A stretch of 64,000 nt of DNA, taken from Wenzhouxiangella sediminis. GTDB lineage: Bacteria; Pseudomonadota; Gammaproteobacteria; Xanthomonadales; Wenzhouxiangellaceae. Below the pieces are notes generated by a model, which searched no databases, had not been told where the DNA came from, and was given only the letters and a program-made list of their open reading frames with translations. The stretch lies in the NCBI RefSeq assembly GCF_003410055.1, contig NZ_QUZK01000012.1, forward strand, positions 1 through 64,000, read 5' to 3'. This document shows, piece after piece, positions 44,117 to 49,615 of the stretch. Positions within the stretch are counted from its first letter, which is position 1. Every line of letters starts with the position of its first letter. The position numbers and the translations under genes were made by a program.

Positions 44117-45544
44117 TCAATCGAACAGGCCATGAATGAACCACCCTTCCCTGGGCCGGTGTTCGTGAAACACCCATAGCCGCCGTCCGTGACGGTCGCG
44201 GGCGACGAAATAGTCGCGCCGGCAGTCTTCCTCGTCCCACCAGCCGGCCTCGATGCGCTCGGGGCCGTCTTCCAGCCTGAGGTTCTCGCGTCGGCAGGGA
44301 CAGGGAGCGGGCAACAGCCAGGTCGGTCTCGGCCGTTCGTCCTCGCAATTCGAAGACGTGCCCGGCTCGACCCAGCGCCAGGCCTTCTCCGGGCGGTGAT
44401 CGGGCTGCGGCGCCAGGCCGGACAGTCCCGCCTCCCCGAGGCGCGCCTTGAGGCGATCCAGCAGCGCCGGCCAGGCGTCGCCGCGGTTGTGGCCGCTCCA
44501 CAGGTCCGCCTGCGGCGGGCGGTGTTCGCCGGTGCTCTCGGCGCGCAGTTCGACGGCCTCGACGGGCGCCGGCAACTCGAGGTTCTCGAGCTTGAGCGCG
44601 AGCAGTTCCAGCAGGCGCTCGGCGTCCATGCCCGGACGCGACAGCCCCACTTCCAGCGGAATGCGACCGCCGCCGTCCTCGCGATGCAGCGTCACGTGCA
44701 AACGCGTGAGCGCCTGGTCGCGAACGTCGAGCCAGTGCGCCATGCGCTCGATCGCCCGGCGAAACACGAACAGCAGGGCCGCGCTGTCGCTGCTGGCCGC
44801 CGGCAGCTCCAGGCGCAGACAGAAGACCTCGGGCGGCTGCCAGGCGGCCAGCGGCGTGGGCGCCCTGCCCTCCAGGCACAGGAGATGACGGTTCAGGGCC
44901 GGTCCGAAACGACGCGCCCGCTCGGGCGCCGGCAGGCGCAGCAGCCCGGCTACGGAATCCAGGCCGCAACCCGCCAGGGCCCGGGCCTGCCTGTCGTCGA
45001 GGGCCAGCGCGGTCAGCGGCAGCCCGTGCAGTTTCCGGCGCATGATCTCGCGGTCGGCGGCGTGCAGGCCGTGGCGGGCGAACAGCCGGGCCGTCGCGGG
45101 GACCGGCGCCGAGCCGGCGCGCACCGGCAGGCCGCGGCGTTCGAGATCCGCGCACAGGGCCTCGACCAGCGGCCGCAGCCCGCCGTAGAGACGCCGGCTG
45201 CCGGCGATTTCCAGCAGCACGCCGTCGCTCGGCGCCTGCACCACATGGCTGCTGCCCTGCCAGGCGCCCAGCGCCAGCTGTTCGAGCAGGGCCGCTTCGG
45301 CCCGGGAGTGGCGCGGGCGGCTCTGCAGGGCCGGCGCGATCGCCAGCGCCGTCGCCAGGGGCTGGCCGGGCGTCACCCCGGCGCGACGCGCGGCCGAACT
45401 GGCCTGCAGGATGATATGGCGGCCGCGCTGATGGCCGTGCACGGCGTGCAGCTCCGGCACCTCCGGATCGCACTGCCAGGCCGCCAGCAGCGGCAGCTGC
45501 GGGCAGTGCAGCCCCAGCCACAGTTCATTGCATCGAACGGGCAT
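44117..45544 (-). CDS. imuB: ImuB, catalytically degenerate Y-family polymerase of the mutasome
   Basis: The 475-residue protein has a Y-family core (LWLGLHCPQLPLLAAW, then HIILQASSAARRAGVTPGQPLATA, DGVLLEIAGSRRLYGG). It lacks the catalytic acidic residues of DinB: the first motif reads LGLHCPQL in place of HVDMDAFY, as in ImuB. It acts as a hub binding the beta clamp, ImuA and DnaE2 for SOS mutagenesis. It overlaps the end of imuA by 20 bases and is convergent with SRAP. Confidence 0.92.
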   Translation of the reverse strand: MPVRCNELWLGLHCPQLPLLAAWQCDPEVPELHAVHGHQRGRHIILQASSAARRAGVTPGQPLATALAIAPALQSRPRHSRAEAALLEQLALGAWQGSSHVVQAPSDGVLLEIAGSRRLYGGLRPLVEALCADLERRGLPVRAGSAPVPATARLFARHGLHAADREIMRRKLHGLPLTALALDDRQARALAGCGLDSVAGLLRLPAPERARRFGPALNRHLLCLEGRAPTPLAAWQPPEVFCLRLELPAASSDSAALLFVFRRAIERMAHWLDVRDQALTRLHVTLHREDGGGRIPLEVGLSRPGMDAERLLELLALKLENLELPAPVEAVELRAESTGEHRPPQADLWSGHNRGDAWPALLDRLKARLGEAGLSGLAPQPDHRPEKAWRWVEPGTSSNCEDERPRPTWLLPAPCPCRRENLRLEDGPERIEAGWWDEEDCRRDYFVARDRHGRRLWVFHEHRPREGWFIHGLFD

Positions 45545-46187
45545 GGCGACGATAGCGCTCCAGGTCGACGACGGACTCCGATTCCGGGCTCAGGCACCTG
45601 GACTCGACCAGGCCGGACGGGCTGCGCAGGATCTCGACCTCCGGACCGGGAGACAGGCCCAGGCGCAGGGCCGACACGGAAGGCGGCGGCGACTGGTCCG
45701 GGCGATAGACCACGAAGGTCGGCCCGGGGCTGCGCTCGGCGGCCAGCTGCAGGCGGCGCACGGCGCGCTCCCCCACCGGCCCGGCGGGCGGCCAGACCAC
45801 GACGCTGCCGCACAATCCGCTTTTCAGGCACTGCTCGGCCGCCCACAGCGATTCGCTCGCCTCGCGCACCACGACCAGGTGATCGAGCGCCACGCCGGCG
45901 CTGATCAGCGCCTGCGGCCCCGGCACCAGGGCCGGACCGGCCAGCACCACCGGCTCGGCCCGCTGCGTGCAACGCGCCAGAAGCGGCAGCAACAGGCCCA
46001 GCTCGCCGCAACCGCTCAGGCTCGGCAGAAGCTCGGTCAGGCGACCCAGCGGCCAGCCGCCGCCGGGCAGGCCGCGGTCGAGCCAGCCCAGGCCGGTCGA
46101 TGCGGCCGGAAAGGTCTTGCGCGCCCGGCCCCGCCACAAATCCGGACGGCGATCGAGCAACTGTTCAAGTGAGGCGTCGGCCGACAT
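45525..46187 (-). CDS. imuA: ImuA, RecA-like mutasome accessory protein
   Basis: The 220-residue protein has a degenerate RecA-like fold (STGLGWLDRGLPGGGWPLGRLTELL near residue 30, VVLAGPALVPGPQAL, VVVREASESLWAAEQCL), matching ImuA, often annotated SulA-like. It works with ImuB and DnaE2 in damage-induced mutagenesis. CGGAG precedes the ATG. It is divergent from dnaE2 across an 87-base gap holding a consensus LexA box. Confidence 0.9.
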   Translation of the reverse strand: MSADASLEQLLDRRPDLWRGRARKTFPAASTGLGWLDRGLPGGGWPLGRLTELLPSLSGCGELGLLLPLLARCTQRAEPVVLAGPALVPGPQALISAGVALDHLVVVREASESLWAAEQCLKSGLCGSVVVWPPAGPVGERAVRRLQLAAERSPGPTFVVYRPDQSPPPSVSALRLGLSPGPEVEILRSPSGLVESRCLSPESESVVDLERYRRHARSMQ

Positions 46188-46274: not shown

Positions 46275-49200
46275 TTGAGCGAGTCAGCCCAATCAACGCC
46301 CGAGTACGCCGAACTGCATGCCCTGAGCGCCTTCAGCTTCCGGCGCTCGGCCGCGCATCCTCAAGCCCTGGTGCGGCGCGCCGCCGAATGCGGCTACTCG
46401 GCGCTGGCGATCACCGACGAATGCTCGATGGCCGGCGTGGTCCGCGCCCACGAGGCCGCCCGGGAACACGGCCTCCACCTGATCGTCGGCAGCGAACTTC
46501 ACCTGGACGATCTTCACCTGGTGCTGCTCGCACCCGACCGGACCGCCTACGCGCAGATCTGCCGCCTGATCACCCGCGCCCGCCGGCGCGCCGGCAAGGG
46601 CGCGTACCGGGTGTTGCCCGAGGACCTGGACGAAGGGCTCGACGACGTGCTGGCGATCTGGAAACCGACACGGCAAGTGGGGAGAAACCCACTTGCGCGT
46701 GTCGTCCCGGCCGAAGAGCCGGGACCTTCCATGCTCGACCGCAACACTGCCTGGCTCAAGGAACGCTTCGGCGGTCGTCTGTGGCTCGGCGCCACCCGCC
46801 TGCTCGCACCCGGCGAACGCGCCTGGTTCCGCGAGCTCGACGCGCTGGGTCGAAGGCACGGCATTCCGCGCCTGGCCTGCGGCGACGTGCGCCTGGGCGT
46901 GCGCGAGGACAAACCCCTGCTCGACGTCTTTACCGCGCTCGAGATGGGCCGCCCCGTCGCCGACTGCGGCCTGGCCCTGGCCGCCAGCGGCGAGCGGCAC
47001 TTACGCGAGCGCAAGGTGCTGGCGAAGCTCTACCCGGCCGAATGGCTGGCCGAGACCCTGCGCCTGGCCGGGCGCTGCGGCTTCTCGCTCGATCAGCTCC
47101 ATTACCACTACCCGCGCGAGCTGGTGCCGGCGCCCCTGAGTCCCGGCCAGCACCTGCGCCGGCTCGCGCTGGCCGGCGCCCGCCGGCGCTATGGCGATCC
47201 GGTGCCGGAAAAGGTGCAGGCCCTGCTCTCGCGCGAACTGGCGCTGATCGAGGACATGGGCGTGGAAGCCTTCTTCCTGACCGTGCACGACCTGGTGGTG
47301 TTCGCCCGCTCGCGCGGCATCCTCTGCCAGGGCCGCGGTTCGGCGGCCAACTCGGCGGTGTGCTACTGCCTGGGCGTGACCGAAGTCGACCCGTCGAAGC
47401 AGCAGCTCCTGTTCGAGCGTTTCCTGTCGAAGGAACGCAACGAACCGCCGGACATCGACGTCGACTTCGAGCACGAGCGCCGCGAAGAGGTGCTGCAGTA
47501 TGTCTACGAAAAATACGGCCGCGAACGCGCCGCGCTGGCCGCCACCGTCATCTGCTACCGACCGCGCAGCGCCATGCAGGACGTCGGCCGGGCGCTGGGC
47601 CTGGAGCCCGAACGCGTCAACCGCCTGACCGCCTCCCTGGCCTGGTGGGACGAGCCCGGGGTCTGGCCCGAGCGCCTGCGCGAATGCGGCCTGGATCCGG
47701 ACGCGGCGCTGACGAAGCGCTTCCTCGAACTGACCGGCCGCCTGATCGGCTTTCCCCGCCACCTCTCCCAGCACGTCGGCGGCATGGTCATCTCCGATAC
47801 GCCCCTGCACGAACTGGTGCCGGTGGAGAACGCCGCCATGGCGGACCGCACCATCATCCAGTGGGACAAGGACGACCTCGAGTCCCTGGGCCTGCTGAAG
47901 GTCGACTGCCTGGCGCTGGGGATGTTGACGGTGATCCGGAAAGCGATGGATTTGATCAATAGTCAGCACCAGGCACCAAGCACCTCCCCCACCAAAAAAC
48001 CAAAAAACGAACACAAGCTCACGCTGGCGACGATCCCCCGCGAAGATTCCCGCACGTATGACATGCTCTGCCGGGGTGACGCAGTCGGCGTCTTCCAGGT
48101 CGAGTCTCGGGCGCAGATGGCGATGTTGCCCAGGCTCAAGCCGCGCTGCTTCTACGACCTGGTCATCGAGGTGGCGATCGTGCGGCCCGGGCCGATCCAG
48201 GGCGACATGGTGCATCCCTACCTCGAGCGCCGGCGTCATCCCGAACAGGTGAGCTACCCCAGCCCCGAACTGAAGAACGTTCTCGAGCGCACCCTGGGCG
48301 TACCCATCTTCCAGGAGCAGGTCATGCAGATCGCCATGGTCGCGGCCGGCTTCAGCCCCGGCGAGGCCGACCAGCTCAGGCGGGCGATGGCGGCCTGGCG
48401 GCGGCGCGGCGGCCTGGAACCGTTTCGCGAGCGGCTCATGTCGGGCATGCGCGAGCGCGGCTATTCAGAAGAATTCGCCGAGCGCATCTACAGGCAGATC
48501 TGCGGTTTCGGCGAATACGGCTTTCCCGAATCGCACGCGGCCAGCTTCGCCCTGCTGACCTACGTTTCCTCCTGGCTGAAATGCCACCACCCCGCCGCCT
48601 TCGCCTGCGCGCTGCTCAACAGCCAGCCGATGGGCTTCTACGCCCCGGCCCAGATCATCAACGACGTCAAACGGCACGGGGTGCGGGTGCTGCCGGTGGA
48701 TGTGCGTTACAGCGAGTGGGATTGCACCCTCACCAAAACACAAAAAAACCAAAACACCAAAACACCAATCCGCCTGGGACTACGCATGATCAAGGGCTTT
48801 CGCGAGGACATCGCTGTAGGCATCGCCGAGGCGCGCCGAACGGCCCCCTTCTACAGCGTCGACGAACTGGCCGAGCGGGCCGGACTGGATCGGGGCTCGA
48901 TGAAGAAACTGGCCGACGCCGGTGCGCTGAAGGGTCTGGCCGGGCATCGTCATCGGGCGCGCTGGGCCGCGCTGGGCGCGCGGCGGCAGGGCGACCTGCT
49001 GGCCGATGCCGAGATCCGCGAACAGCCGGTCCAGTTGTCGCTGCCCGATGCCAGAAGCGAACTGGTCGACGACTACGCCAGCCTGGGGCTGAGCCTGGAG
49101 CGGCATCCGCTGAAGTTGCTGCGGCGTCGGCTGGGCCGTCACGTGCTTCGCGCCAGCGACCTGCCCCGGCAGGCGGACGGTCGCCGAACGGTCGCGGCCG

Positions 49201-49510: not shown

Positions 49511-49615
49511 TCACGCAAAGCCGCAGAGACGCAGAGTGCGCAGAGGAAGAAAGAGAAAAGAACATCTCTTCTTTTCTCCGCGAACTCTGCGGCTCCGCGT
49601 CTCTGCGTGATGCCC
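49511..49615. repeat. about 105-bp imperfect inverted repeat between convergent dnaE2 and uspA
   Basis: The left arm starts TCACGCAAAGCCGCAGAGAC at 49511 and the right arm ends GCGTCTCTGCGTGA at about 49610. The reverse complement of the right arm matches the left arm with scattered changes over at least 34 bases. Each arm is itself a run of CGCAGAG units about 8-9 bases apart. The middle is purine-rich (GAAGAAAGAGAAAAG), facing its complement. RNA from either strand would form a long hairpin, so it could terminate both genes. It resembles a sequence type dispersed in many genomes. Confidence 0.8.

Follow-up and report, generated by a model that had tools for sequence, protein, structure and literature searches.

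Short dispersed repeats translated in three loops of the error-prone polymerase DnaE2 of Wenzhouxiangella

An A/C-rich segment inside a polymerase gene

The window analysed here, a whole stretch of 64,000 nucleotides, contains a GC-rich gene for an error-prone DNA polymerase with an A/C-rich segment that is read as protein, which raises the question of where such a segment comes from and why it is found in this gene. The features concerned are collected in Table 1. The product of the host gene scores 1445.2 bits against NF004225 (error-prone DNA polymerase; cut-off 939), its AlphaFold2 model (mean pLDDT 84.1; model numbering equals the residue number minus 8) exhibits the PolIII-alpha fold, and the gene adjoins imuA-like and imuB-like genes, the mutasome neighbours that mark DnaE2 (the ImuA model score being just below its cut-off). 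Outside the loops described below, dN/dS is 0.12-0.17 in six species pairs, and dnaE2 is therefore under purifying selection there; none of the dnaE2-level matches listed contains an internal stop. Directly downstream of the gene, the intergenic positions 49513-49607 hold an inverted repeat of CGCAGAGA-type octamers, whose general make is like that of the DnaE2 loop arrays.

Table 1. Coordinates of dnaE2, its divergent neighbours and the three insert sites in the window
Feature	Position	Strand	Basis
dnaE2, error-prone DNA polymerase, 1062 aa	46275..49463	+	ORF, NF004225, five Pfam domains, PolIII-alpha fold
imuA-like gene, divergent to dnaE2	45525..46187	-	NF033429 147.3 bits, slightly below cut-off 150
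imuB-like gene, divergent to dnaE2 (context and control)	44117..45544	-	Pfam IMS 37.5 bits, cut-off 23.2
Site 1, REP-like double hairpin inserted in frame, within residues 131-154	46665..46735	+	predicted fold, comparison with relatives
Site 2, AGCACCA heptamer remnant plus degenerate CACCAAAA octamers, residues 563-581	47961..48016	+	sequence, repeat analysis
AGCACCA heptamer remnant inside site 2	47965..47984	+	position equals that of the fuller element in G016 and G024
Degenerate CACCAAAA octamer run inside site 2	47990..48015	+	repeat-family analysis
Site 3, CACCAAAA octamer array, purer than site 2, residues about 819-832	48731..48770	+	repeat analysis, array detector

The sequence-only reading had described the segment at site 2 as a translated, A/C-rich insertion of foreign composition in a surface linker of the palm region. 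The segment is indeed in frame in the 1062-aa ORF, where it encodes about 19 residues (563-581, SQHQAPSTSPTKKPKNEHK), and the foreign composition is borne out by a GC content of 0.50 at site 2 and 0.35 in the second array, vs 0.65 across 464 kb of the genome that carries the window (G000, 3.5 Mb). The location was mistaken, as in the Pfam annotation site 2 falls early in the fingers domain (550-729). The repeat itself is real: two families, AGCACCAGGCACCAAGCACC (period 7) and degenerate (CACCAAAA)n (period 8), are joined at site 2, and dnaE2 of this genome has three insert sites. The pattern CACCAAAAMACCAAAA, with up to three mismatches, has six matches in the window, every one of them in dnaE2, vs 0.10 expected; one further motif scanned across the window gave nothing over chance.

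All three sites are coil in the AlphaFold2 model, where the confidence rises from below 50 at site 1 through about 55 (site 2) to 69 (site 3). For sites 2 and 3 no stable fold is predicted (z 0.73 and 0.39), which leaves a role in RNA structure unsupported for them, and they lack the palindromic structure of a CGTC REP or a Rickettsia palindromic element. Site 1 is predicted to fold strongly (-45.8 kcal/mol, z -6.26) and contains CGTC ahead of a hairpin with an 8-bp stem, with a predicted loop of 6 nt and the tag partly paired; the CGTC REPs are defined by a stem of 8-9 bp, a loop of 4-5 nt and a terminal CGTC tag that is unpaired. G016 shares the site 1 insert, G010 and G024 have diverged forms of it, and G009 has other content there. 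At the same site, the DnaE2 of a member of another family of the order (L077, genome G047) has a very long Ala/Thr/Ser-rich loop.

Repeat families dispersed in the genome and the genus

The octamer family is not confined to dnaE2. The pattern ACCAAAACACCAAAA, with at most one mismatch, has 76 matches in G000 vs 17 for the reversed pattern used as a control, and the 38 octamer clusters examined are intergenic in 29 cases, lie in 5' leaders in four (one of them placed by what we take to be the start of methionyl-tRNA synthetase), at a contig end in one and inside coding sequence in four. The gene dnaE2 accounts for two of the coding clusters; a sugar epimerase/dehydratase and an MmeI-like enzyme have one each. 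Several clusters form inverted pairs, and the family as a whole has the features of dispersed short tandem arrays, i.e. a 7/8-bp unit in tandem at many, mainly intergenic places. The idea that the loop contains a dispersed repeat, translated in frame, is thereby supported, since the octamer of site 2 is found elsewhere in the genome. The epimerase/dehydratase is a third gene-internal target in G000, with an in-frame octamer array inside the protein (L188, 5207-5241); the in-frame array of the MmeI-like enzyme is near the C-terminus, behind the recognition domain (L183, 2097-2123). When the site 2 region was used as the query in a DNA search of G000, only the locus itself was returned, while the pattern searches did find copies. 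The exact 16-mer CACCAAAACACCAAAA occurs in two of the 30 genomes of the genus (G000 and G008), with a near form in dnaE2 of G016. The contigs G007:C284 and G000:C53 start within long pure 7/8-bp arrays, at which the assemblies are therefore interrupted, so that arrays are undercounted.

The heptamer part of site 2 is similar to the terminal part of a different element, AGCACCA...TTCGAATG, which has at least 46 matches in G010, at least 35 in G016, 30 in G021, 23 in G024, 13 in G007 and three each in G000 and G009, and is present at site 2 of G016 and G024. The search for this element did not recover the remnant at site 2 of G000, whose link to the family rests on position and motif and is to be taken as putative. 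We had considered that the AGCACCA family might be private to dnaE2, as exact matches in G000, G010 and G016 are found solely there, and the broader element search refuted this. Since the AGCACCA part is common in place to G000, G016 and G024, it is older, and the sequence-only reading finds less support here.

These data bear on the possibility that site 2 is an old native low-complexity loop with no relation to genomic repeats. The DnaE2 proteins of other bacteria do vary in length here too (median spans of 26, 20 and 26 residues at the three sites in 80 named loci). However, copies of the same octamer are scattered over the genome, for the most part outside genes, and the sequence at this place is unrelated in sister species: an old native loop should be shared by all close relatives, but relatives with 89-93% core identity carry different sequence at site 2. 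We regard a purely native loop as highly implausible.

Array counts in dnaE2 and in control genes

With DnaE2 as the query, 60 of 61 genomes (one per species) gave a match, some merely at the level of DnaE1. Many of the Wenzhouxiangella matches break near residues 142-158, 564-582 and 820-831, i.e. at the three sites. The same three loops are a genus-wide hotspot, which is the main point and one that the sequence-only reading, made without relatives, missed. The loop content differs by species (GGTTTCC, AAGGAAC, GGGGTTC, GGGACCA, GGGACTC, ACGGAAG, GGTGAAA, CACCAAAA and others), and some loops contain repeats as inverted arms, or REP-like hairpins instead.

In the dnaE2 genes of 24 other Wenzhouxiangella genomes (76.9 kb; five genes incomplete), a detector of period-7/8 arrays made 43 calls (arrays inherited by descent counted more than once), and 17 of the 24 have at least one array. 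DnaE2 was chosen because G000 has inserts there, and the 24 other genomes were not picked on that basis; G008, G013, G020 and G029, with DnaE1-level matches only, and G011, with no match, were left out. For the background, ten genomes were sampled unevenly, 464 of 864 kb coming from G000 and the remainder from nine others; here the same detector called three arrays in coding DNA (707.7 kb) and 24 in non-coding DNA (156.3 kb). Each of the three coding arrays is found upstream of the Pfam domain in its ORF and is probably an artefact of the start codon chosen, but we counted them nonetheless; trinucleotide shuffles gave no calls. In the nine genomes sampled both ways there are 16 arrays in 30.2 kb of dnaE2, two in 332 kb of coding and ten in 67.7 kb of non-coding DNA. 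A crude Poisson test of the dnaE2 rate against the non-coding rate gives 2e-12, with arrays common by descent being non-independent. The detector misses degenerate arrays, and the counts are therefore lower bounds: the site 2 array is too degenerate to be called, the sole call in dnaE2 of G000 is 48731-48768, and a stricter version yields eight calls over 464 kb, none of them in this gene, where the looser version used for the counts makes its one call.

No arrays were called in any of the control sets: dnaE1 (66.0 kb; n=20, three of them from genomes outside the genus but in the family; first 180 bases trimmed), imuB (26.6 kb, 20 genomes; 20 of 30 loci), ligA (35.5 kb; 18 of 30 loci), uvrA (68.6 kb, 24 genes of 30 loci) and recB (31.1 kb, nine genes of 30 loci). 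The dropped imuB and ligA loci include one and three of the same genus, respectively, and fragments and weak matches were dropped from uvrA and recB. Two ligA matches, L276 (G018) and L281 (G011), have one TGA each within the frame. Among 80 named DnaE2 loci, five arrays were called in Wenzhouxiangella sp. 15190 and one in the other 79 (L112); long or REP-like loops are seen in a few other DnaE2 proteins, e.g. L129 and G053.

The type of repeat in dnaE2 follows the genome's own pool. AAGG-type arrays are found in dnaE2 of G005, G007, G015, G022 and G028, all five of which have copies elsewhere (these genomes are related and do not constitute independent evidence for the rule), ACGGAAG-type loops are found in G009 and G010, again with copies elsewhere in both genomes, and G025 has AAGG-type copies in the genome and none in dnaE2. 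In 10 of 22 genes, 9-mers are common to loops 2 and 3 (22 of the 25 genus sequences entered this analysis), with 3.2 expected among all genes and 7.5 within clades; within-clade shuffles reach 10 in 235 of 2000 cases, so that copying between the two loops is not distinguished from clade effects. Of the 43 dnaE2 arrays, 27 have no stop codon in any of the six frames, vs 8 of the 24 non-coding arrays, an excess that fits, as expected, better survival of stop-free repeats.

Origin of the inserts and comparison with known repeats

A hotspot that is specific to dnaE2 among the genes tested could reflect selected variability, the loop repeats making dnaE2 a contingency locus in which slippage of 7/8-bp units toggles the frame of a mutagenic polymerase, or in which loop length tunes mutasome contacts. 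The unit lengths are not divisible by three, as such toggling would need, and Di Nocera et al., in the available part of their paper, found repeats in repair genes hard to regard as fortuitous (PMC3733652). However, the dnaE2 arrays are short, degenerate and often missing (seven of 24 genomes have no called array), and the dnaE2-level matches listed are free of internal stops; we consider this explanation quite unlikely. That the loops form a selected, repeat-fed contingency region, which the genome's repeat pool rewrites so as to alter or toggle the mutability of the lineage, we hold to be a decidedly doubtful proposition.

Mobile elements of the MITE or RPE kind, moved by an enzyme of their own and with a preference for dnaE2 DNA or its neighbourhood, would account for the inverted arms that flank a spacer in several loops (one of which folds at z -5.60), for the inverted octamer pairs of G000 and for the copies of one element that G016 and G010 have at dnaE2, both within the locus and near it. 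On the other hand, the same architecture recurs in many unrelated repeat sequences, sites 2 and 3 of G000 have no fold, and no arrays were called in 31.7 kb of dnaE2 flanks (13 loci). Such elements seem to us an unlikely source.

The interpretation we favour, with a probability of roughly two in three, is that the insert represents a fragment of dispersed, mostly intergenic 7/8-bp families that is read as protein, and that such repeats recurrently enter and overwrite tolerant DnaE2 loops. Tolerance alone would not suffice: the loops of other genes should then hold arrays, yet the dnaE1, imuB, ligA, uvrA and recB sets have none, and the density of arrays in dnaE2 exceeds that in non-coding DNA. 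The arrival route and the reason for the preference for dnaE2 we infer as follows. Recombination, template switching and slippage, or some enzyme, might spread copies of the repeats over many places; arrivals inside genes would mostly be purged, and the three DnaE2 loops would accept stop-free inserts of frame-keeping length. A loop that already contains repeats may offer a longer, homologous target and be overwritten again. We expect the inserts to affect the activity of the polymerase little.

Rickettsia palindromic elements are the classic translated selfish DNA, found in frame within functional proteins. Such elements, as they are cited in the available parts of PMC3733652 and PMC6649704, are palindromic and spread over many genes, whereas sites 2 and 3 of G000 are non-palindromic. 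In the marine Beggiatoaceae, TAACTGA repeats are likewise dispersed 7-bp direct repeats, but in what is available of that paper they are intergenic, as its title states, and the unit itself contains stop codons (PMC4679880). The GGGNATC heptamers of Xanthomonas and Nostoc (Rehm et al. 2015, PMC4692102) resemble the present families in being short arrays of 7-bp units that are dispersed and lie mainly between genes; they have another unit, intragenic copies are rare (11% and 7% in two xanthomonads), and the available part of the paper does not mention an in-frame hotspot.

The closest parallel is provided by the GTAG/CGTC REPs, which Di Nocera et al. (2013, PMC3733652) describe, in the available part of the paper, inside repair genes, with DnaE2 named among them. 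Like the repeats analysed here, they are dispersed, in frame inside genes and have DnaE2 as a target; flexible loops were proposed as tolerant sites, and mutator effects were speculated upon as a possible outcome. REP hairpins in DnaE2 and other repair genes are thus already known, and the claim that translated dispersed repeats are rarely described must be narrowed accordingly. The REPs are palindromes of 20-40 bp, whereas sites 2 and 3 are fold-less 7/8-bp arrays (site 1 is REP-like), and, unlike what that part of the paper describes, three fixed DnaE2 loops recur genus-wide here. Simple 7/8-bp arrays in three fixed DnaE2 loops, denser than in sampled non-coding DNA, were not found in the open-licence literature searched. 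The present data provide a counted, replicated case of intergenic-type repeats turned into protein sequence at fixed places of one gene, at an array density above that of sampled intergenic DNA, the gene concerned encoding a polymerase of the induced-mutagenesis pathway. With dnaE1, imuB, ligA, uvrA and recB of the genus as controls, the suggestion made in 2013 that repeats in repair genes are non-fortuitous becomes testable.
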